Shown here: in pieces, positions 12,135 to 34,419 of the stretch | How the letters are laid out: each line of letters begins with the position of its first letter | How positions within the stretch are numbered: position 1 is the stretch's first letter | IMG/VR virus record: IMGVR_UViG_3300042350_002363 | Coordinates: 1-40,373 of that record | Strand: one strand, 5' to 3' | DNA length: 40,373 nucleotides | DNA from: a virus | Position numbers and translations under genes: made by a program | The notes under the pieces: generated by a model | Database searches by the model: none | Seen by the model: the letters and a program-made list of their open reading frames with translations, nothing else | Told to the model about the DNA's origin: nothing

Positions 12135-12469
12135 TCCTGCACGTAGACCACGTCGTTCCGCTCACGTCCGACTACGCCCGCACCAATCGCACCCTCGCCG
12201 AATACCTCGGCAGCAACGACGTATCGGTGCTCGTTGATGCCAAGTGGGTCGAGGACGAGAACGAACGCTTCCACCAGCACGGCAGCGTGCGGACGCGCTA
12301 CTGGCGCCTGAAGTCCTGGGACTTGCTCGAGATCCGGCTTGACGGCACGGCGATCAACACGCCGCACGACGTGCCGAACGATTTCCCGATGCCTGAGGTC
12401 ATCGCCATCGCCGAGGGCGGCGCGCTTCGCGACGAGCTCGAGCGACAGGGCGCGAAGGCGAAGGCATGA
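12131..12469 (+). CDS. Hypothetical early protein, 112 aa
   Basis: 112 residues from the ATG at 12131, which overlaps the previous stop (ATGA). The sequence MILHVDHVVPLTSDYARTNRTL looks beta then helical, followed by VSVLVDAKWVEDENERFHQHG, RYWRLKSWDLLEIRLDGTAIN, and an Ala/Lys-rich C-terminal helix. No known domain is recognised. It lies immediately before the methyltransferase gene, overlapping it by ATGA, so the two are co-translated. This tight link is the only hint about function: an accessory to the methyltransferase or an unrelated early protein. Confidence 0.58.
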   Translation: MILHVDHVVPLTSDYARTNRTLAEYLGSNDVSVLVDAKWVEDENERFHQHGSVRTRYWRLKSWDLLEIRLDGTAINTPHDVPNDFPMPEVIAIAEGGALRDELERQGAKAKA

Positions 12470-13914
12470 GATACCTCTCCATATGCTCGGGCATTGAGGC
12501 CGCGAGCGTTGCGTGGCACCATCTTGGCTGGACGCCCGTGGGCTTCAGCGAGATTGAACCATTCCCAAGCGCGGTACTCGCGCACCACTATCCCAACGTT
12601 CCCAATTTCGGAGACATGACGAAGCATGAGCAATGGCCCCTTCAACCCGGATCAATTGACCTTCTCGTGGGCGGAACGCCATGCCAGTCATATTCAGTCG
12701 CGGGGTTGCGGCAAGGACTCGCAGATCCGCGAGGGAGCCTCATGCTCACCTACTTGGCAATCGCTGCTCGGCTCCGACCTCGGTGGATTGTCTGGGAAAA
12801 TGTCCCCGGTGTTCTGTCCTCGAACGGAGGACGGGACTTTGGCACCTTCCTCGGGGCGCTGGGGGAACTCGGGTATGGGTTCGCGTACCGAGTCCTGGAC
12901 GCTCAATACGTGCGAGTGGGGCGATGGCCCCGAGCCGTCCCGCAGCGCCGCCGCCGGGTGTTCGTCGTCGGTCGCCTCCTTGAGCGAGGTGCTGGAGACT
13001 GGACCGCTGCCGCCGAGGTACTCGCTGTCCGCGAAGGCTTGCAGCGGCATCTTGAGGCGGGCGGAAAGGCGCGGAAAGGCGCTGCCTCCGATGCTGAAGG
13101 CGGCGCTCAAGTCGGTTTCTATGGGGGAAGTCAGCCCGACTGTGCAGACACGGTGACCAGCAAGTGGTCGAAGGGGTCCGGTGGTCCTGCCGGGAATGCG
13201 TGTGGATTGTTCTTGGCGCAGCCGACCGCGTGGCCTGCTGACTGTGCCGGGACTTTGGCCCAGTCATCCACGGGAAGTGGAGCGCCTGGGTACAGCAACC
13301 AAGAAATCTTCTCGCAGAACTGCGCGAACCTCGTTCCTCAGCCCGTCCCTTTCACCAAGGCCAAGCGGGCGCAGTCTGTGACTGATGACGAAACTTGGGT
13401 GCAGGGCCAGGTCAACCCGACGCTCTCGCTGTTTGACCAAGGCGACACGCGGGCGACCACGGTGGCGGTGGCGTTTGCCAACCGCACTCGCGATGGCATC
13501 AAGATGCCGGAGATCATGGCAGACGGCGTAACGCCAGCCCTGACGAATCCGGGTGGCGGTGGAAGAAGCGATGCGATCAACGTGGCGGTGGCTCACGCCT
13601 TCTACAGCACGGGCGGGACCCACGGAGTCAACCAACATCCCGAGGTGTCCCCCGCCGTGAAGGTGGGAAGTGGGCTCGGCATTCCTTCGCCGCCAGCGGT
13701 GGCTCAAGCCATGACCGTCCGCCGGCTGACCCCGGTTGAGTGCGAGAGACTCCAGGGCTTCCCGGACAACTGGACGCTGATCCCGTGGCGGAAGAAGCCT
13801 GCCGAGGAATGCCCGGACGGGCCGCGATACAAGGCGCTCGGCAACAGCATGGCCTGCAACTGCATGGCTTGGATAGGGGAGCAAATCGCAAAGTGGGAGG
13901 CTGACCATGCGTGA
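12466..13914 (+). CDS. dcm: DNA (cytosine-5) methyltransferase
   Basis: 482 residues with the ordered motifs of C5 methyltransferases: SAM-binding SICSGIEAAS at 5-14 (motif I), catalytic Pro-Cys GGTPCQSYS at 69-77 with C73 (IV), WENV at 110-113 (VI), QRRRRVFVVG at 160-169 (VIII), and near the C-terminus RLTPVECERLQGFPDNW (IX) and YKALGNSM (X). The long, Gly/Asn/Thr-rich region between motifs VIII and IX (about residues 180-410) is the target-recognition part. It would methylate cytosines in phage DNA to evade host restriction. No partner restriction enzyme is present. A second gene lies in another frame over residues ~54-230. Start overlaps the upstream stop (ATGA). Confidence 0.93.
   Translation: MRYLSICSGIEAASVAWHHLGWTPVGFSEIEPFPSAVLAHHYPNVPNFGDMTKHEQWPLQPGSIDLLVGGTPCQSYSVAGLRQGLADPRGSLMLTYLAIAARLRPRWIVWENVPGVLSSNGGRDFGTFLGALGELGYGFAYRVLDAQYVRVGRWPRAVPQRRRRVFVVGRLLERGAGDWTAAAEVLAVREGLQRHLEAGGKARKGAASDAEGGAQVGFYGGSQPDCADTVTSKWSKGSGGPAGNACGLFLAQPTAWPADCAGTLAQSSTGSGAPGYSNQEIFSQNCANLVPQPVPFTKAKRAQSVTDDETWVQGQVNPTLSLFDQGDTRATTVAVAFANRTRDGIKMPEIMADGVTPALTNPGGGGRSDAINVAVAHAFYSTGGTHGVNQHPEVSPAVKVGSGLGIPSPPAVAQAMTVRRLTPVECERLQGFPDNWTLIPWRKKPAEECPDGPRYKALGNSMACNCMAWIGEQIAKWEADHA
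12626..13156 (+). CDS. Overlapping gene inside the methyltransferase gene, 176 aa
   Basis: A 176-residue frame, shifted +1 relative to the methyltransferase gene and wholly contained in it. It begins MSNGPFNPDQLTFSWAERHAS and continues with blocks SGKMSPVFCPRTEDGTLAPSS, GRWGNSGMGSRTESWTLNT, and SLSEVLETGPLPPRYSLSAKACSGILRRAERRGKALPPML. I recognise these blocks from many standalone or overlapping phage 'hypothetical' proteins (DQLTF start, 'WTLNTSEWP', 'LETG..P.RY.LS..AC.GILRRAEKRGK'), which argues that it is a real protein and not a shadow. A GGAGA sits 11 bp before its ATG. Over the same bases the methyltransferase frame also keeps its motifs, so both frames appear under selection. Function unknown; a link to DNA modification is implied by the arrangement. 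Confidence 0.68.
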   Translation: MSNGPFNPDQLTFSWAERHASHIQSRGCGKDSQIREGASCSPTWQSLLGSDLGGLSGKMSPVFCPRTEDGTLAPSSGRWGNSGMGSRTESWTLNTCEWGDGPEPSRSAAAGCSSSVASLSEVLETGPLPPRYSLSAKACSGILRRAERRGKALPPMLKAALKSVSMGEVSPTVQTR

Positions 13915-14095
13915 CATCCCGAACGCCGGCAACGTCGCCGTCACCCTGCGCCATGGCCAGTCGGTCGTGATCGTGGACGAGGATGGCCGTGCCGTCGCCG
14001 CCGTTGCCCCGACGCCGTCCAACGTGGGCAAGGTCACGCTCGTCGTGCGCGCCCCGAAGACCGTGCGAATCCTGAGGGAGCGCGACGATGAGTGA
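13907..14095 (+). CDS. Hypothetical protein, 62 aa
   Basis: 62 residues (MRDIPNAGNVAVTLRHGQSV). Predicted all beta: VAVTLRHGQSVVIVDEDGRAVAAVAP then VGKVTLVVRAPKTVRIL, in a spacing reminiscent of small beta-barrel phage proteins or CsrA-like dimers, although no CsrA signature is present. Start has an excellent GGGAGG ribosome site and overlaps the methyltransferase end by 8 bp; its stop overlaps the next gene by 8 bp. Function unknown. Confidence 0.6.
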   Translation: MRDIPNAGNVAVTLRHGQSVVIVDEDGRAVAAVAPTPSNVGKVTLVVRAPKTVRILRERDDE

Positions 14096-25935: not shown

Positions 25936-25949
25936 CGGTTACGGGTACT
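25936..25949 (-). repeat. 14-bp boundary repeat, copy 2
   Basis: AGTACCCGTAACCG on the minus strand, starting in the TAG stop of the giant gene, identical to 5238-5251. A second, shortened copy of GTACCCGT follows it directly (25930-25936 region), so this site holds one and a half units. The tail fibre gene begins 40 bp further. Confidence 0.55.
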
Positions 25950-28900
25950 AACGCTGCACCCCGGTGAGCGGCGCGACCACCGCGCCGACGCCCTCGACCT
26001 CGCCCTCGACCACCGCCTCGATGCCATCGATGGTGCGGTTGATCTGCGCCGCCGGCAGCCCGGTAAACGCACCGAGCGTGTTGACCGCAGAGCGGCGGAA
26101 GGCGCGGTCGAACTCAAGTTGTCCAGCCTGCGTGGCAAGGCCGTACACCTCTCCGATGGCGCGCAGGCCGGCAGGGCCGCCGTAGCCCATGCGGACGCCT
26201 TCCGCGCCCGTCAGGAGCTGCGCGGCGCCTCCAAACTCGCGTGCGATGATCATGGTGCCCATCATGTACGACAGCTCCTCGGCGGCGAGCTTGCGTGCCA
26301 GCGCCTCGGGATCGAACTCCTCGTCATCCGTGTTCGGCTGGAGCAGGCTCTTGATCGCGTAGCCGAGCACGACCGGGACCACGAACAGCATCGCATAGTC
26401 GGCGGCCAGCTTGCCCTTTCCGCGTGCCGTCATCGTCTGCACGGCGGCCATGTTGTAGACCGTGTTCATGTACGAATAGAACACCGTGAACAGCTTCATG
26501 GCCGGCCCGCCGCGCTCGACAGCCGCAAGGTCCGAGACGAGGCCACTGCCCTGCGAATCGCGCACCGCCTGGTCGGCGAGCGCCACGGCCGTGGCATCGT
26601 TCTTCCCGGCGTCGAGCGCTTTCTGGTACGCGCCGAGCCAGGTCGGGATGTCCACTGACCGCTGCATGTTCATCATCAGGAAGTAGGTGCCGGCGAACAC
26701 CCGCCGCGAAATCTCTGTCTGTCCGCGTACACGGTTCTTGATCTCGTTGATCTCGCGGAACTGCGTGCGGCCGCGCTCGGCCATGAACTGGCTCTTCTCG
26801 GACACCATCTTCGCCGAGTCAAACGGGCTGGTCGCAAACTGCGTGATGCCCTGCCCGACGTACTTAGCGCCCACCCGCACGATGCTTTGGTTGAAGCCCG
26901 TGATCTGAAGCGCCGCGCTGTTGATGTTGAAGCCGAGGCCCGACGCGCTGATGCCCTGCCTGAGCCAAGACAGGACCGACTCGCCGGCGACCTGCTGACC
27001 GCGGCCCCCGGTCGCGTTGTCCTTCGTCCAGTCGCGCAGTTGCTTCAGGAACTCAGGCCCGCGAGTCTCGCGTACGGCGTTTGCGAACTTGACGTCCCGC
27101 AGCAGGCGGTTCGTCGAGATGAGCCACTCGTGCCACGCCAGGTCGTGGATCACGTCGTTCACCCCGCTGAAGGCGGCATCGAGCGTGTACAGGATCGGCC
27201 TGTCCACGACCTCCTTGGCTCGTGCCTTGACGAACGACCGCCGTGTGGTGGCCGCCGTATACGCGCCTTGCAGGTCGCGCTTGGCCTCCTCGGCGGCGTC
27301 CACGGTCGCCACGCGGTCGGAAGCCACCGGGTCGTACTTGATTGGGTAGTAGCCGCCCTGGAGGTTGACCTCCTTGCCGTCGACCGTGCGGACGGTGAAC
27401 GGGACGGGCGTGACCCAAGTCGGCTCCTTGCCGTAGAGCCTGCGCTCCTTGGCGGCGATCTCCGGGCGGTAGCCGTCGATGAAGTCCCACACCTGCTGCA
27501 CGGCCTGCCATTCGGCCTCGGTCAGGCTTTCGAGCACGGGCTGGATCTGCTCGAGCGTCCAGCCCTCGCCGTCGAGCAGGCGCTGGCGGTTGCCGTCGTT
27601 GCCCATGTTCAGGGCGATGGCGAGCCGCGCCTCCCGGTTCAGGCTGCGCCCGATGGACGGGAAGTGCATCCCCTTGCCGCCCATGCCGCCGAGCGCGAAC
27701 ACGGGCTTCAGGATCTCGCCCAGCCTGAGCGCTGCCTTGGCCCGCATGGTGGTTTCCATGTCGGAGGCGTCGTTGGCCGTGCGGATGATGGCGTTCCAGA
27801 GCGGGCCGTCTTCCTTGCCGCCGTCGAGGACGCGGGCAATGGACGCGGCCTTCAGGTGCTGGGCGGCGAACCCGCGCAGGAACGCGGCGGCGCGGCCGAT
27901 CCCGGTCAGGGGCGTGCGCGGGTCGAGGCTCAGGCCCCGGACCTTGCCGGCGGCGCGGATGCGCGTGACGATCTCGTCCCGCTTCTCCTCGAACGCGGCG
28001 CGCTCCTCGGCCAAGCGCAGCTTCTGCTCGTTCTTGCCGATGAACTCGATCTGCCGCACCGCGTCCACCAGGTCGCGGAACTCGCTGACCTTCATCTCGC
28101 GGTAGTTGACGCGGCGGGCTTCGTTCGCGATCTCCGGGGCAATGTCCGGCACCAGCCCGGCGGCCTCCTGCTCGGCAAGCCAGTCGGTCAGCGCCTTGCG
28201 CTCGTCCAGGCGCTTCAGGCTGACGGCGGCGACCTCGAAGCGGGCAAGGAGCCCGGCGACCTGGTCGGCCGCCTGCGCCCCCATGCGCTTGACGTTCTCG
28301 TCCCTGAGCACCCGCCGCAGGTACTTGACCTGCTTGTCGACCTCGGCCTTGACCCGCAGCGCCTCGGCGGCGAGCTGGTTCTGGTAGAGCTGGGCGCGCT
28401 TTGCCCGTATGCGGGCCTGCTCCGGATCGGCCCCGTAGCGCGCCTTGATCTCTTCCGTGCGCTCCTGAGCCATCCTGGCGGCCTCCACGCTGGCTGTGGT
28501 GGCCTCGGCCACGGCGGTCAGCTCGTCGGCCCCCGCCGCGATCCGCTCGTTGTAGGTCCGGGTATAGGCGGCGCGGCCAACGGCCACGGCATCCACGGGC
28601 GACCCGATGCGGGAAGCGTCCCGGGCGGCGCGGGCCTCGGCGGCCACGAAGTCGCTCGGGCGCACGTCCCGGACCCGCTTGCCGGCGATCAGGTCGCGGG
28701 CGACCTGCTTGGCCGCGTCGACCATCACCCGGGCAGGCTCGGTCGCCTTGGACAGGTAGCGCAGCTCAACGGCCACGAACCGGGCGCGGGCCTCGTTGTG
28801 GAGCGCAGCCTGCACCTCGGCCTCGATGGCCTCCGGGCTCGTCATGTCCCCGAACCGCCTGAGCATCTCGGCGTCCGTCCGCTCGGCCACGATCTCCTTC

Positions 28901-31900
28901 ATGGGCCGGGCTGCGATCAGGGCGCGGATCATCTCGTCGCCGCTCGAGTAGCCGAACGTCTCGGCCACCAAATCCGGGTCGAGCCCATCCACGCCCATCA
29001 TGCCGCCCTTGCCCGTCCCGAGCTTGGCGATGTCCGGGGCGATCACCGCCGGCATCGGCATCCCGGTCGCACGCACGGCCTCGAGCGAGGCGGCGGTCGG
29101 GACCGTCTCGTAGAGCTTCTTGACGCGCTTGGTGTCAAGGCGGTGCGGCCCCTCGACGGCGACCTCGGCCCCGTCCGCGTCCACGAACTTCCCGGTGCGG
29201 AGGTAGGTCATCGCACGGTAGACGGGCTCGAGCCTGACCTCAGCGGCGATCTCGACGGCGACTTCCTTGCGCCTGGCGTCGTGCTTCTTCTGCACCTCGC
29301 GCAGGACGCGGCTGCGTGCGTTCCCGAGCCACTGCATCTGCCGCATGCTGGCGACGTTCATGTCGATGACCGACGCCTCAATGGCCTCCTGCTGCATCTG
29401 CTGGTACGCAGCCCACTCCGCGTCCGACATGCCGCTCTCGGCCTGCGTCTGGAACATCGGCTTCATCTCGTTGATGGCCGCCTGCCGTGCGATCTGCTCG
29501 TCCGTGGCGAGCATCCGGTCCATCACCTGGCGCACCTCCCCGGTCAGGAGTGGCAGGTCTTCCCCGAACTCGCGGCGGTAGATCGCGTTCAGGTCATCGC
29601 GGATCGAGCGGTAGATGCGCTTGAGCCACGCGCTGAACCGCTCGAACATGCCCTGCATCTCGGCGCTCGGTGCCTTGCCCTCAAACAGGTAGACCTCGAA
29701 CGAGTAGGCGAACTGCTCGTGCGCCTTGCGCTTCTGGTCAAGCGTCATGCCGTTCCACGTGGCGAGGCGCGCCTGCGGCGTGTCGCCGGCGATGCCTGCC
29801 CAGCGGAGCACTTCGTCCAGGTCGTTGACGATGCGCGCCGGGGCATCCGGCATCTGTGCGACCTGCTCGTAGAACGTGAGAAAGGCGTGCGCCGACTCGT
29901 GCAGGAACGTCGAGAGGTCGGCGGTCTTGTTGAGGATCGTGGTCAGCCGGCGCGGGTCGAAACCGCCGCGGGCTGGGCCGGGCGCTGCCTGCTCTAGGAC
30001 GCCGACCCCGACTGCGGGTTGAACTCCGGCGCCGGATCGCGCACGAATGGCATCGGCGTCCGCAGCAGCCTGCTCAGCAAGGCGCGCTCCCTCTCCCGTG
30101 CCGCCGCCTCGGTCGGCCCACTTTGCGGCTTGTTCTTCAAGTCGCTGCCGGTTGACTTCTGGTCGCGTGTACCACGGGGCATTTCCACTCTCCGATACTT
30201 TGAATTTGGCCGGAACAACCTTGTTGCCGGCCTTCTTGATCTCAGACAAGAACTGCCGGAACGAGGCTACGCTAAAATCATACGTTCCGCCAAGTGGCGT
30301 GACGTACCGGAACCACGGGATTCCATCACGGTCCCGGTTGTACTGGGCGCCATACTCGTATGCGCCGTATTCGCCCTGTTTACCGGACACCTTTGCGATG
30401 GCTTGGTCATCGCCCTTGGCATCAAGCAAGATTGCATCCAGCGTGGCGTGCGCGGCTTCCTGCTGACTGTAGGCAACCCACGTTTCCCAGTGATAGCGGC
30501 CGATGCTCGCATCTTCCGGCCTACCAAGTCTGGCGTACAGCTCATTGACGCGGCCTGCAAGCTGCCTTTCAATTGCCTCATAGACGAGGATGCCGCGAAC
30601 ACCTTCGGTGATCGCATTGAGCGATGATCCGGCGAGCTTCTTTCCGTCCTCGCTCATCACTCCGTCATACAGATTCGTCCCCGCGAATCTTCCGTCATCC
30701 CACAACTGGCGAATCTGCACACGATCAAGAACCATCACGTCGTTGAATCCGGCGACAAGCAGCGTGAATGACACGACCTTGTTGTCGATGCCAACGCCTT
30801 CTCCGAACGTGGAGAACTCGCGACGAATCTTCTGTCCGGTCTGGTTCGGATCGGACATCATCTCGTGCAGGCGCTGTAAGTTCGACTTCCCGTCCGGGCC
30901 GATGGCACCCATCTTCATCAGGAAGTTCTTGCCGAATGCGTTCAGGTTGTGGGTCGCGCCGGCACCAGGCTGTCCGCTGCCCTGCGGCGCAACGGATTTG
31001 GCCCATTTTTCATACGCCGGGAAGTCCGCTTCCGTGAAGTCGCCCTGAGCAGCCTTTTTGATCCAGCTGTCAGCGCCCTCAAATGCGTCGATGAACAAAG
31101 ATTCCTGCGTGTATGGGCTGACGCCTCGAGACAGGAACGACCACAGGAACAGCTTTCCGGTGGTGATGACATCAAGTTCGCCGTTGATGTACGCCTGGCG
31201 GAACTCCCTGGCATTGGCAAAGCCACGCGACGCATCGGCAATCTGGCCTTCGGTAAGCGTGGAAAGCCTTTCAAACGATCCATTTCCGTTGATGTCCCGG
31301 ATGAATGCATACGGCGGAACCGGAACATCGCTTGTCGCAAACGCATACGACAGCATGTTCGTCCAAGCATCTACGGATGCTCCGGCATCTGGGAATCGAC
31401 CGAGGATGTCATCAACGTTCGAAAGCTGCTTTGCAGCATTCTTATTCGTCGTTCCCGTCAGGATCAGCGGCTTCTCTGGCAATTCCTGTGCTTGCGTTGC
31501 CATGACACGCAATGCCGGCCAGAACCCAAGCTTGTTCTCTTGCGCCACACCGATGCTTGGTGCATTCGGTCCAGGTGGCATCGCTGCCTGCTCGAACAGC
31601 TTGGCGCTGGTGATGTCAAAGCGGCGCGACAGCGGGACGATGTTGCCCTGCTCGTCGCGGGTGACGGGGTTGGCTGACTTGATGTCATTCGGACTGAAGA
31701 ATCCGATGTTCCGGAAGTAGTCAGAAACAGACTCCCTCTCAAAGTACCCAGAGAAACCTGCATCTCGGATTGCTCGCGCAACATCCGACATTCCGCCGGC
31801 GAAATCAAGCTCGTAAGTTTCCCACGTGAACGGGAGATCCAAGCCGGACAGTCCAGCCCTCTGAACGTGCGCCGGATTTCTTGGATCGAATATTTCTCCT

Positions 31901-34419
31901 CGGCCGTACCACGTGGAAATGTTCGGACCGATTACCTGCGCTCCCTCCGGAAGAATTGCTTCGCCGCGCAAATACGCATCTTCCATCGTTCTGGCGTAGT
32001 ACTCGGCCGTAGAGCGATCCAGGCTTGCAGATGCAGCGATACCGCGCACTCCGCGTGGAACGTCGATTTTCGTGATTCCGCCGTGGAACAACGGCCCGAC
32101 CTTGTACCCAGCCATCCACGCAGCTTCTTCAACCATCTGCTTTGCCGTTGACATGTCTCCGCGCTGAACGGCATCAAGATATTGCGCGTCACGGCGAGTT
32201 ACTGACGTCGGTCGTTCCTTCTCGCGCTTCCTGACAAGGGCAAGCAATGGGTGCTGACCACGCTTGCCCATTTCGCCTGGCAGCGACATCATTCCGCCAC
32301 CGCGAGTCGAAACTCCGGCCATCTCAAAATCGAAGTCTTGTTGCAGCAATTCAGTGACTTCGTCTTCAGTCACCAATCCAAACAGGTTTGCTTCGGCAAT
32401 AAAGTCACGTGCATTGATTTCGCCCTTGGCGTACCGACGAATGTCCTTGCGAAGCGACACACCATCGACTTTCGGCATTTGCGCTGCCTGCTCAAGCGGT
32501 GTTGCCGGCGTCGCCATGCCCTCGCCCTCGACGCGGACGGGGAAGCGCTCGTACACCTGCTTCGGCGTCAGCCCCATCGACGCCGCCTGCGTCACGTAGA
32601 AGTCGCGCATGAACTGCGCGCTCGAGCGCGCCGCACGCTCGTCCATCTGCCCGGTCGCTTGGATCTGTGAGGCCAGCGTGTCCTCAATCTCACGCGCCTC
32701 CTGCACGAAGGTGCCGCTCGTGGACTCCTTTTCGGTCAGGATGCGCTCGGCGTCCTTCACGACCTCCTGCCGCCGCGCCTGGAACTCCTGCGCCTCTGTC
32801 AGGCTCATCGCGTCCGGGTCAAGCCGCATGTGCGGCAGCAGCGCGTTCCCGAGGTCCGTGTTCGCTAGCCGCGCCCCGAACCGCGCCGTCTGGATCGTCA
32901 CGTCCCCGCCCGTGGCGACCGCTTCGTCCACCTGCGCCTTGATCCCGGGCAGCACCTCCTCAAGCTGCGCCGCCGTCAGGCCGCTCTGCGCGAACAGCTC
33001 CTGCGCCGTGCGCCCGTCCACGTAGATCGTCTCGGCGGGGCCGTCCTTTGCCTGCGCCTCGAGGAACCGCTCGTATGCCTCCGGGCTGCGCTTGGCGAGC
33101 CTGCTGTCCTTGCCGACCGTGGCGAGCTTCTCAAAGAACACCTGCTGCCGCTCGGTGTTGGCCGCACGGCTCAGGTCTACGTACAGGTTTGCGCCCGGTC
33201 CGATGCCGCCCAGGATGGCCGACCCCATCGCGCCCTGCACGAAGGCGTCCACCACGCGCTCGGTGGCCTGCCGCAGGCCAGTCTCGCTGTCGATCCCGGA
33301 CGCCGCCTTGGCGATCTCCTCGCCGGCGATGATGACCACCTCCTGGAGCGCCTCCTCGCTGGCCTCGGTCCCGACCTGGAGGATGTAGCCCTTTCCGGCC
33401 GCGGCGAGCGCGGCGCGGGTCGTGGGCTGCGCGACGGCCTTGGACACCGCCTCGGCCATGAACCGCTTGGCAAGCGCCTGGAACGGCTTGGCGGCGATCT
33501 TCATGCCGACCACCTCAATCACGCCGTTCAGGAACCCGCCCGCCACGGACACCGGGATGGCAACGTCATCCTCGACGCCTTCCTCGCGCAGGTCGAGGTA
33601 CAGGTTCCCGGCCTCCATCTGCCCGGTCGTGGCGACCACGCCTGCGGTCGCGCCGAGCGCGCCGCCAGCAATCGTGCCGAGAACTGGCACCGCGCTGCCG
33701 ACCGCCGCGCCGCCGACCGTGAACGTGCCGATCCCACGGATCTGCGCGAGGTTCTGCGCGATGACCTCGGTGGTCGCGCCCAGGAACCCGACGTCCACCA
33801 GCTCGCGCATCCGGTCGCGGATCTTGGTCGCACGCTCAAAGTCCTCGGGCTGCGCCAAACCAGCCATTGCCCTGCCGCCGATCTCGCCGCGCTCGGCAAC
33901 GAGCTGGCCACGCTCGAATCCGCGCCGCATTCCCGGGGTCATCCCGGTCACGTAGAACTGCACGTAGTCCAGCATGAACGGCCGGATCGTCCCCAGCACG
34001 TCGATGTCATCGTGAGCCGTCTCCGCAAACTCCTTGTTGGCGAGGAAGTTCGCCATGACTGGGTCGGTGCGGAGCAGGTCCTTCGAGCGCAGGTCCGCGA
34101 GGTACGCCTGCTGCTCGGCCCGCTGCATGTCGGCACGGGCCACCTCAGCCGGGATGCCGACCTTCCTGCCGACCTTGATGGCGCGTGCGGCCTCGTCCGG
34201 GTTGACGGCGCGTGCGCCGAGCACGGCGGCGTCGAGCGACTCCGTGTCCTTCTCTGCGATTTGCGCCGCCACCGGGTCGACGTCCGGCATCGCCATCGTC
34301 GGCTGCGAGGTCGGGACGGCCGCACGGGACGCGATCTCGGACGCAATCGGGTCGACATCGTCCTGGACCTGCGAGGGAGAGAATCGTGCCATGCGCTCGT
34401 TGATGTCCGGCTCGATCAC
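25948..34419 (-). CDS. Giant polyvalent ejection protein (ADP-ribosyltransferase-like and zinc-peptidase-like regions)
   Basis: 2823 residues. N-terminal part (1-640) is helical with a Gly/Ala-rich hydrophobic stretch at ~233-265. Residues ~745-942 match the ADP-ribosyltransferase of polyvalent proteins: YKVGPLFHGG at 772-781 (H779), DRSTAEYYAR at 801-809, and the closing NDIKSANPVT...NIVPLSRRFD. Residues ~950-1420 are a second conserved-looking region I cannot name. HESAH at 1507-1511 plus HEQFAYSFEVY at 1567-1577 (E1568) form a zincin-type site. From ~1650 to 2150 it is charged coiled coil; a membrane helix lies at ~2676-2693. EQAA linkers at 642, 942 and 1475 separate the parts. It is presumably injected with the DNA and acts inside the host. 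Residues ~647-1423 are encoded by lower-GC DNA. Confidence 0.8.
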   Translation of the reverse strand: MIEPDINERMARFSPSQVQDDVDPIASEIASRAAVPTSQPTMAMPDVDPVAAQIAEKDTESLDAAVLGARAVNPDEAARAIKVGRKVGIPAEVARADMQRAEQQAYLADLRSKDLLRTDPVMANFLANKEFAETAHDDIDVLGTIRPFMLDYVQFYVTGMTPGMRRGFERGQLVAERGEIGGRAMAGLAQPEDFERATKIRDRMRELVDVGFLGATTEVIAQNLAQIRGIGTFTVGGAAVGSAVPVLGTIAGGALGATAGVVATTGQMEAGNLYLDLREEGVEDDVAIPVSVAGGFLNGVIEVVGMKIAAKPFQALAKRFMAEAVSKAVAQPTTRAALAAAGKGYILQVGTEASEEALQEVVIIAGEEIAKAASGIDSETGLRQATERVVDAFVQGAMGSAILGGIGPGANLYVDLSRAANTERQQVFFEKLATVGKDSRLAKRSPEAYERFLEAQAKDGPAETIYVDGRTAQELFAQSGLTAAQLEEVLPGIKAQVDEAVATGGDVTIQTARFGARLANTDLGNALLPHMRLDPDAMSLTEAQEFQARRQEVVKDAERILTEKESTSGTFVQEAREIEDTLASQIQATGQMDERAARSSAQFMRDFYVTQAASMGLTPKQVYERFPVRVEGEGMATPATPLEQAAQMPKVDGVSLRKDIRRYAKGEINARDFIAEANLFGLVTEDEVTELLQQDFDFEMAGVSTRGGGMMSLPGEMGKRGQHPLLALVRKREKERPTSVTRRDAQYLDAVQRGDMSTAKQMVEEAAWMAGYKVGPLFHGGITKIDVPRGVRGIAASASLDRSTAEYYARTMEDAYLRGEAILPEGAQVIGPNISTWYGRGEIFDPRNPAHVQRAGLSGLDLPFTWETYELDFAGGMSDVARAIRDAGFSGYFERESVSDYFRNIGFFSPNDIKSANPVTRDEQGNIVPLSRRFDITSAKLFEQAAMPPGPNAPSIGVAQENKLGFWPALRVMATQAQELPEKPLILTGTTNKNAAKQLSNVDDILGRFPDAGASVDAWTNMLSYAFATSDVPVPPYAFIRDINGNGSFERLSTLTEGQIADASRGFANAREFRQAYINGELDVITTGKLFLWSFLSRGVSPYTQESLFIDAFEGADSWIKKAAQGDFTEADFPAYEKWAKSVAPQGSGQPGAGATHNLNAFGKNFLMKMGAIGPDGKSNLQRLHEMMSDPNQTGQKIRREFSTFGEGVGIDNKVVSFTLLVAGFNDVMVLDRVQIRQLWDDGRFAGTNLYDGVMSEDGKKLAGSSLNAITEGVRGILVYEAIERQLAGRVNELYARLGRPEDASIGRYHWETWVAYSQQEAAHATLDAILLDAKGDDQAIAKVSGKQGEYGAYEYGAQYNRDRDGIPWFRYVTPLGGTYDFSVASFRQFLSEIKKAGNKVVPAKFKVSESGNAPWYTRPEVNRQRLEEQAAKWADRGGGTGEGARLAEQAAADADAIRARSGAGVQPAVGVGVLEQAAPGPARGGFDPRRLTTILNKTADLSTFLHESAHAFLTFYEQVAQMPDAPARIVNDLDEVLRWAGIAGDTPQARLATWNGMTLDQKRKAHEQFAYSFEVYLFEGKAPSAEMQGMFERFSAWLKRIYRSIRDDLNAIYRREFGEDLPLLTGEVRQVMDRMLATDEQIARQAAINEMKPMFQTQAESGMSDAEWAAYQQMQQEAIEASVIDMNVASMRQMQWLGNARSRVLREVQKKHDARRKEVAVEIAAEVRLEPVYRAMTYLRTGKFVDADGAEVAVEGPHRLDTKRVKKLYETVPTAASLEAVRATGMPMPAVIAPDIAKLGTGKGGMMGVDGLDPDLVAETFGYSSGDEMIRALIAARPMKEIVAERTDAEMLRRFGDMTSPEAIEAEVQAALHNEARARFVAVELRYLSKATEPARVMVDAAKQVARDLIAGKRVRDVRPSDFVAAEARAARDASRIGSPVDAVAVGRAAYTRTYNERIAAGADELTAVAEATTASVEAARMAQERTEEIKARYGADPEQARIRAKRAQLYQNQLAAEALRVKAEVDKQVKYLRRVLRDENVKRMGAQAADQVAGLLARFEVAAVSLKRLDERKALTDWLAEQEAAGLVPDIAPEIANEARRVNYREMKVSEFRDLVDAVRQIEFIGKNEQKLRLAEERAAFEEKRDEIVTRIRAAGKVRGLSLDPRTPLTGIGRAAAFLRGFAAQHLKAASIARVLDGGKEDGPLWNAIIRTANDASDMETTMRAKAALRLGEILKPVFALGGMGGKGMHFPSIGRSLNREARLAIALNMGNDGNRQRLLDGEGWTLEQIQPVLESLTEAEWQAVQQVWDFIDGYRPEIAAKERRLYGKEPTWVTPVPFTVRTVDGKEVNLQGGYYPIKYDPVASDRVATVDAAEEAKRDLQGAYTAATTRRSFVKARAKEVVDRPILYTLDAAFSGVNDVIHDLAWHEWLISTNRLLRDVKFANAVRETRGPEFLKQLRDWTKDNATGGRGQQVAGESVLSWLRQGISASGLGFNINSAALQITGFNQSIVRVGAKYVGQGITQFATSPFDSAKMVSEKSQFMAERGRTQFREINEIKNRVRGQTEISRRVFAGTYFLMMNMQRSVDIPTWLGAYQKALDAGKNDATAVALADQAVRDSQGSGLVSDLAAVERGGPAMKLFTVFYSYMNTVYNMAAVQTMTARGKGKLAADYAMLFVVPVVLGYAIKSLLQPNTDDEEFDPEALARKLAAEELSYMMGTMIIAREFGGAAQLLTGAEGVRMGYGGPAGLRAIGEVYGLATQAGQLEFDRAFRRSAVNTLGAFTGLPAAQINRTIDGIEAVVEGEVEGVGAVVAPLTGVQR
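29983..29994 (-). repeat. 12-bp linker repeat, copy 3
   Basis: Plus-strand CGCTGCCTGCTC, identical at 29983, 31582 and 32482. In each case it encodes EQA(A) in the giant protein. This copy lies between the unnamed domain and the zinc-peptidase region. Confidence 0.6.
31582..31593 (-). repeat. 12-bp linker repeat, copy 2
   Basis: Same 12 bases as at 29983 and 32482; encodes EQAA right after the ADP-ribosyltransferase-like region (LFEQAAMPPGP, residues 941-951). Confidence 0.6.
32482..32493 (-). repeat. 12-bp linker repeat, copy 1
   Basis: Same 12 bases; encodes LEQAAQMPK (residues 642-650). It lies at the point where the GC content drops towards the ADP-ribosyltransferase-like segment. Confidence 0.6.

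Follow-up and report, generated by a model that had tools for sequence, protein, structure and literature searches.

The viral record IMGVR_UViG_3300042350_002363, taken here over its full 40,373 nucleotides and called the window, carries a cytosine-5 DNA methyltransferase gene with a second open reading frame (ORF) of 176 codons wholly inside it, on the same strand and in the +1 frame (Table 1). The enzyme scores 152.2 bits with PF00145, for which the cut-off is 22, and phrog_116 covers its residues 1-478, which makes it one chain, matched end to end. An earlier note on this DNA, made from the letters alone, had described the smaller frame as a gene within a gene, and its start, stop, length and offset proved to be right. 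The protein blocks that it quoted are present in the nested translation, and the PCQ, ENV and QRRRRV motifs of the methyltransferase are legible over the same bases. The nested product almost certainly exists, and it is probably a partner of the methyltransferase, to judge from the sequences compared below.

Table 1. Features of the methyltransferase gene and of the frame nested in it (positions in the window).
Feature	Position	Strand	Basis
Cytosine-5 DNA methyltransferase, 482 amino acids, host frame	12466..13914	+	PF00145 E 3.1e-44; phrog_116 E 7.2e-85; TIGR00675 E 7.3e-43
Nested ORF, 176 amino acids, ATG start, +1 frame of the methyltransferase	12626..13156	+	ORF list; comparison with relatives
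Proposed start site of the nested frame (GGAG 12610-12613, ATG 12626-12628)	12610..12628	+	Sequence; anti-Shine-Dalgarno duplex; selection in relatives
QLTFSW, place of the clamp-motif-like segment, degenerate in the window	12653..12670	+	Alignment
Catalytic PCQ of the methyltransferase; the nested frame reads through	12679..12687	+	Translation; PF00145 match 1-170
QRRRRV motif of the methyltransferase; on the nested-frame side, the more variable stretch ahead of the three-helix domain	12943..12960	+	Translation; entropies of codons 151-165
Methyltransferase codons 166-206, third codon position the constrained one	12961..13083	+	Position entropies, resampling
Conserved three-helix domain, nested residues 119-165 (47 residues)	12980..13120	+	AlphaFold2; invariant residues
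Methyltransferase C-terminal part (ECERLQGFPD ... GNSMA), beyond the overlap	13696..13911	+	Counterpart joined to the nested frame in 8 relatives

Judged from the window alone, the length of the nested ORF is not beyond chance. When synonymous codons were resampled within the gene, 1013 of 5000 recodings (20%) contained an ATG-started ORF of at least 176 amino acids in the nested frame, and shuffling the codon order produced one in 298 of 5000 genes. Comparison with relatives does rule out a chance ORF, through the presence of the frame in an enzyme-chosen set, its openness, its position entropies and its deficit of stops.

The relatives come from sets chosen in different ways. Similarity to the nested protein gave the best 80 of 396, 80 of 587 and 80 of 473 relatives, which together with five phage records and the window copy make 246 loci, or 224 rows including the window after duplicates, rows with N and short rows were dropped. 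Because these loci had been chosen by the nested frame, another set was picked by the last 72 residues of the methyltransferase, which lie outside the overlap. Among the best 80 of 600 relatives so found, 72 have the N-terminal half of the enzyme in the same ORF; the other eight were dropped, and the same row filters left 69 distinct rows including the window, called the enzyme-chosen rows below. A further set of 85 loci was again chosen by nested-frame similarity, one of its two scans giving the best 80 of 195 relatives. It belongs to what we label Firmicutes-type (loci L325-L361 and L363-L447), most of which were chosen by likeness to nested proteins from the phylum of genome G002; a handful belong to other phyla, and viral contigs are among them. 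Resampling preserves each protein and its codon usage, not the tree, and was repeated 20 to 200 times per test apart from the 5000 recodings above.

All 72 full-length methyltransferases found via the non-overlapping C-terminus contain the nested frame, and 217 of the 224 rows are open in the +1 frame over enzyme codons 60-210, where 17.3 are expected. The strongest constraint falls in codons 166-206. In the enzyme-chosen rows, codon positions 1, 2 and 3 have entropies of 1.07, 0.63 and 0.62 bits there, against 1.47-1.88 bits for position 3 in three control regions. Position 3 is fixed because the nested codon has its second base there; read in the nested frame, the first and second bases are fixed and the third is free. 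With an amino-acid entropy of 0.92 in this stretch, against 1.49 for the enzyme frame, the +1 frame is the better conserved. Across the 224 rows its consensus share is 0.781, compared with 0.360 after resampling and 0.640 for the enzyme frame itself. Stops in the +1 frame are almost absent from the enzyme-chosen rows: 0 in codons 166-206 (40.2 expected), 1 in codons 106-150 (68.0 expected) and 1 over codons 106-206 overall, with about 113 expected (68.0 + 5.2 + 40.2). The control regions, by comparison, show no deficit, with 67, 72 and 75 stops where 54.4, 41.9 and 67.3 are expected. The nested frame is under purifying selection beyond that imposed by the enzyme frame.

This constraint is uneven, being strong in codons 166-206 and partial in codons 106-150. 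Codons 61-105 hold 37 stops in the +1 frame of the enzyme-chosen set where 130.7 are expected, yet third-position entropy is not lowered (1.53 bits), and the N-terminal part of the nested protein is therefore only loosely constrained. The earlier claim that both frames are constrained is strongly supported. The same unevenness applies to the blocks that had looked conserved: LETG..P.RY.LSAKAC.GILRRAERRGKALP shows conservation of its own, whereas TEDGTLAPSS lies where third-position entropy is not lowered and therefore in part only mirrors the enzyme motif ENVPGVLSSNGGRDFG. The earlier note had named two observations that would count against it if made jointly, namely normal third-position freedom in the methyltransferase frame and no homologues outside overlapping methyltransferase genes; the second is what we find, and the first is not. 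One window-type member (L055, about 1623-1874) has a nested frame that ends at a stop after 83 codons, which is either a loss or a sequence error.

The proposed start of the nested frame carries its own marks of selection. An in-frame TGA at 12617-12619 precedes the ATG and excludes a longer reading, and the duplex with the anti-Shine-Dalgarno sequence is computed at -6.6 kcal/mol, where the start of the enzyme gives -5.6. A nested-frame ATG follows the last in-frame stop in 188 of 217 rows (22.0 expected), and an ATG together with a Shine-Dalgarno sequence occurs in 154 of the 217, where 7.3 are expected and the maximum in 40 resamplings is 13. The same combination is found in 77 of 100 Firmicutes-type rows (18.8 expected). 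The start column itself varies, lying at codons 54, 59, 65, 48 and others. As far as sequence can tell, this evidence fits internal initiation better than frameshifting.

The nested product is predicted to consist of a flexible arm and a three-helix domain. AlphaFold2, run with 106 relatives, places helices at residues 119-125, 136-149 and 155-165, with block values of the predicted local distance difference test (pLDDT) of 91-97 in residues 131-160, while the first 120 residues look disordered (block pLDDT 49-59). The overall predicted template modelling score is 0.33, and for this reason the three-helix domain alone is usable from the model. When the core is predicted by itself, helices two and three recur confidently and the first helix is short, with blocks at pLDDT 57-65. 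Ten residues are invariant in the 106 nested sequences: L119, L123, L134, A138, C139, G141, I142, R145, L157 and L161.

Sequence libraries hardly know this protein. The window's nested protein has no match in Pfam, PHROG (even at an E-value of 1) or NCBIfam, and two Pfam families each match one of the 106 relatives, with E-values of 0.046 and 0.05. The profile of phrog_16143 (139 positions) matches 98 of the 106 at E-values up to 0.1, although the window's own copy goes unmatched at values up to 1. Its match in Caulobacter phage DMCA falls in the nested frame. The label of this family, DNA methyltransferase, is the name of the overlapping enzyme, even though the profile describes the nested frame, and annotation pipelines that draw on PHROGs v4 may hand on the wrong name. 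Searches of PDB sequences gave no match for query A1 and one at an E-value of 1.1 for the core. Structure searches of the PDB gave matches too weak to use, the best being a Foldseek E-value of 3.1 for the core model and, with VIA, a Z score of 3.9 to a sigma factor region (45 residues aligned, root-mean-square deviation 5.2). In a viral structure library the best two matches, both with an E-value of 4e-3, are a 521-residue protein called cytosine methyltransferase and an 81-residue protein of phage Thibault, and both look like members of the nested family. A known RNA element or defence family was also considered and rejected: Rfam has no family in window positions 12300-14000 at E-values up to 0.1, and seven nested proteins have no match in PADLOC, a library that models defence and not counter-defence.

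At every locus examined the nested core lies inside a methyltransferase gene. A methyltransferase frame covers the match in 246 of 246 loci, with the nested frame always +1 to it. The same arrangement holds in 85 of 85 Firmicutes-type loci, and a rescan of 38 loci returned a core hit in 36, all of them nested; the two others, L328 and L362 (of which L362 is a partial hit containing an internal stop), had none and were not counted. The earlier note had spoken of standalone copies in phages, which these searches did not confirm: no free-standing core was found among the 246, 36 and 85 loci with a core. One candidate, gp104 of Mycobacterium phage Thibault, turned out to be the part of a methyltransferase gene that follows an HNH insert. 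In Thibault, KashFlow and Schatzie (Mycobacterium phages; L325, L326 and L327, about 1400-2000) an HNH endonuclease insert splits the methyltransferase within the overlap, and for that reason the nested frame is broken too; the Schatzie record states that intron boundaries could not be determined.

The family occurs in mobile genomes. The core sits in the +1 frame inside P1 dmt and inside the methyltransferases of Caulobacter DMCA, Enterobacter CobraSix, Mycobacterium Porcelain and Vibrio 234P10. A composed core query matches 113 of 50,697 phage records (E-value 1e-5) and 528 of 72,556 plasmid records, 448 of the latter from Escherichia, and the Porcelain nested protein as query matches 161 phage records (E-value 0.01). 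With a core profile we obtained hits in 19 of 398 genomes of the phylum of G002 (locus L174, Bacillota) and in 5 of 396 genomes of the phylum of G003 (locus L190, Microbispora), each count including the seed genome. The core is not carried by all C5-methyltransferases: of the 60 loci from two phyla that score highest with PF00145, 58 are without it, and one of the two that have it is G002. The core therefore marks a subfamily, and since the top-scoring loci are a biased sample they show that such a subfamily exists, not how large its share is.

The C-terminal half of the enzyme provides a further tie between the two frames. We located it in 88 of 105 distinct Firmicutes-type and genome rows (the other 17 were dropped), and it lies in the enzyme ORF in 60 rows; in 8 it belongs to the nested ORF, and in 20 it forms a separate ORF. 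In the eight fused loci the enzyme frame stops between 46 nucleotides before and 170 nucleotides after the end of the core match, and the nested ORF continues into the enzyme C-half, with ECERLQG or a similar sequence and GNSIA. Because their nested proteins share only 43-66% identity among themselves, a single sequencing error cannot explain them. On the sequences as they stand, the second half of the enzyme at these loci would be expressible only if ribosomes translate the nested frame or shift into it. The fusions may thus be read as gene-fusion evidence for an association of the two products, and they point indirectly to use of the nested start. The separate C-half ORFs (for example L341, L363, L381, L389 and L431) lie downstream of the nested core in any of the three frames, and the enzyme seems often to be split at a point after the core. 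Two loci, L408 and L436, have an HNH-endonuclease-like sequence (HRIVWIA...DHINNDK, recognised by eye) after ERLQG(F/Y)P, in frame and in the motif IX region of the fused chain.

In part of the family the arm carries a short segment that resembles a sliding-clamp-binding motif. According to a review, natural motifs of this kind read Q-aliphatic-x-[L/M]-[F/L] or take a six-residue form, and that of Hda lies in a disordered N-terminus (PMC11139829, excerpt). Many Firmicutes-type nested proteins have EQVSLFD, EGQMSIFD, YQLTLFD or similar sequences soon after the proposed start, and the Porcelain protein has QLDLF near its start. The published definition, which we applied after a first expression had been written on sequences already seen and to as many as 60 codons rather than to the tip alone, is matched in 30 of 101 Firmicutes-type rows where 1.36 are expected; the mirror and Q-to-N controls find 0 each and the Q-to-E control finds 2. 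Window-type rows match in 18 of 222 cases (2.05 expected), with 1, 0 and 6 for the same controls (1.7, 1.5 and 3.1 expected). In the window type the Q is selected (160 of 217 rows, 37.4 expected), as is a hydrophobic residue three places on (193, with 55.1 expected). The segment falls near enzyme codon 60 in the window type and further downstream, at about codon 100 by reading, in the Firmicutes type, and from these differing positions the motif seems to have been set at separate places along the gene of the enzyme.

Both overlapping genes and two-chain C5-methyltransferases are already known. The beta ORF of M.EcoHK31I lies within its alpha gene in a different frame. M.AquI and M.EcoHK31I are cytosine-5 methyltransferases made of two polypeptides, and the small chain of M.EcoHK31I supplies motif IX (PMC3404938, excerpt). 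In those enzymes the motifs are divided over two chains, whereas the window encodes one full chain and a nested protein without an enzyme motif; a division of that kind is met in the 8 fused relatives among the 88, with the C-half as a separate ORF in 20 more. The likeness to clamp binders is that of a short motif in a tail, N-terminal and disordered in Hda (Q-aliphatic-x-[L/M]-[F/L]; PMC11139829, excerpt) and C-terminal in insertion sequence transposases (PMC4549789, excerpt), but here it lies in a gene that overlaps a methyltransferase, is found in part of the family only and is known from sequence, with QLTFSW in its place in the window. Another known case close to this one is dmt of phage P1 and P1-like plasmids, which has the same nested +1 core within its cytosine methyltransferase part; the record NC_005856 annotates a bifunctional methyltransferase with no nested coding sequence there. 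Among the matches listed from the open-licence literature, titles and the beginnings of abstracts mention no extra protein nested in complete one-chain phage methyltransferases. Annotation tends to allow one gene per stretch, which seems to be why this conserved nested protein escaped notice.

We propose, with about even confidence in the whole, that the nested frame encodes an internally initiated accessory subunit of the methyltransferase, and that an arm motif tethers the enzyme to the sliding clamp in many lineages. Ribosomes would start at the internal site in the methyltransferase message, so that the small protein would be made from the enzyme's own RNA and in step with it. Its three-helix domain would dock on the enzyme or on adjacent DNA, close to where the catalytic part meets the target-recognition part. 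In lineages that carry it, the arm motif (Q-aliphatic-x-[LMI]-F) would bind the bacterial sliding clamp behind the fork, and the clamp would carry the enzyme to newly copied phage or prophage DNA, which would then be methylated. Enzyme binding, clamp binding and replication-coupled methylation are what we infer from the sequences, and tethering is a tentative candidate for the mechanism where the motif occurs, one that we hold with slightly less than even confidence. A bolder version seems rather unlikely. In it an ancient overprinted gene, general in one large subfamily of phage cytosine methyltransferases, would encode a clamp adaptor whose arm attaches to the host sliding clamp and whose helical domain grips the enzyme, with methylation secured during copying, before restriction enzymes cut. 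DNMT1 is recruited by PCNA, and a clamp adaptor of this kind would be the bacterial counterpart, folded into the enzyme's gene. The earlier proposal of a co-encoded partner holds in part: dual constraint and a selected start speak for a real protein, and exclusive nesting and the C-half fusions argue for the partnership. The two roles suggested for that partner, a change in the specificity of the enzyme and the countering of a host defence, find no evidence in these sequences, which do show a clamp-motif-like segment in part of the family, a feature absent from the earlier note.

Several observations weigh against this proposal. The counts overstate the independent evidence because the rows are related to one another. 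The fusions may be ordinary splitting of the enzyme for which the nested frame was convenient, since the C-half has its own ORF in 20 of 88 rows, and at L415, L416 and L425 it is the N-half of the enzyme that runs in frame into the core, with the C-half in the other frame, which can be a frame swap within the overlap or the product of sequence errors. The clamp motif is missing from 71 of 101 Firmicutes-type rows and from 204 of 222 others. It is absent from all 176 residues of the window's nested protein, where QLTFSW does not fit, and from the entire nested frames of P1, CobraSix and DMCA; in Vibrio 234P10 it occurs only far from the N-terminus. In the window type the next position of the motif (position 5) is unselected, at 128 rows with 125.1 expected. 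A universal clamp motif is accordingly rejected, and the motif is limited to certain lineages.

The nested gene could instead be real and its product act apart from the methyltransferase, for instance against host restriction, another defence or a replication protein, and be nested merely because an overlap is hard to undo. Its home in phages and P1-like plasmids would suit such a role, as would the conserved arginines of helix 2 and the clamp motif in part of the family, which fit an action on host replication. We nevertheless think this unlikely, for the core was never apart from a methyltransferase at the loci examined and is fused to the enzyme C-half in eight of them. Less likely again is a structural beta subunit that serves catalysis or target recognition, as in the two-chain C5-methyltransferases, and has no link to replication. 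M.AquI and M.EcoHK31I are the precedent (PMC3404938, excerpt), and the C-halves found in the nested frame or in ORFs of their own recall them. However, the window enzyme is matched end to end as one chain, the C-half stays within the enzyme ORF in most of the rows where it was located, the N-half is in the same ORF in 72 of 80 loci found by their C-terminus, and the clamp motif would be left unexplained.

Two further readings do without a separate protein. Programmed frameshifting from the methyltransferase into the nested frame, giving the enzyme an alternative C-terminus, would make use of a frame that is open across the catalytic region and would join the two enzyme halves in the eight fused loci. 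It is very improbable: the ATG and its Shine-Dalgarno sequence are selected, a stop stands just ahead of the ATG in the window, and the selected motif lies close to the nested start. The DNA could also be conserved with no protein made at all, owing to RNA structure, to codon bias or to a shadow that conservation of the enzyme casts on the second frame. It is true that the likeness of the blocks across the catalytic motifs is partly such a shadow and that a fifth of recodings reach the length of the window ORF. This last reading is strongly disfavoured, since codons 166-206 fix the first two bases of the nested codons and free the third, the +1 consensus exceeds both its resampled value and that of the enzyme frame, and Rfam finds nothing there.

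The nested relatives are at present held by one PHROG under the enzyme's name, and the window product belongs to no Pfam or NCBIfam family. With the frame present in phage P1, a test of its expression is within reach of phage laboratories. Should the product prove to be a subunit, the nested protein may have been present, unsuspected, in assays of phage methyltransferases cloned from this subfamily, and a gene of this kind that is recoded for expression would lose it. Codons 166-206, with the hidden frame more conserved than that of the enzyme, offer a clean natural system for the study of overlapping genes.

Elsewhere in the window, a 40 kb virus record, a PHROGs scan (20 ORFs) includes terminase, head-tail adaptor, tail, RecT-like and Gam-like genes. 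The methyltransferase is also matched over residues 14-242 by phrog_864, labelled DNA primase (E-value 1.1e-55), which suggests primase-methyltransferase fusions in that family. On the + strand, a 1036-codon open frame at 26887-29997 runs antisense to a 2823-codon ORF on the - strand (25948-34419), of which it is probably a compositional shadow.

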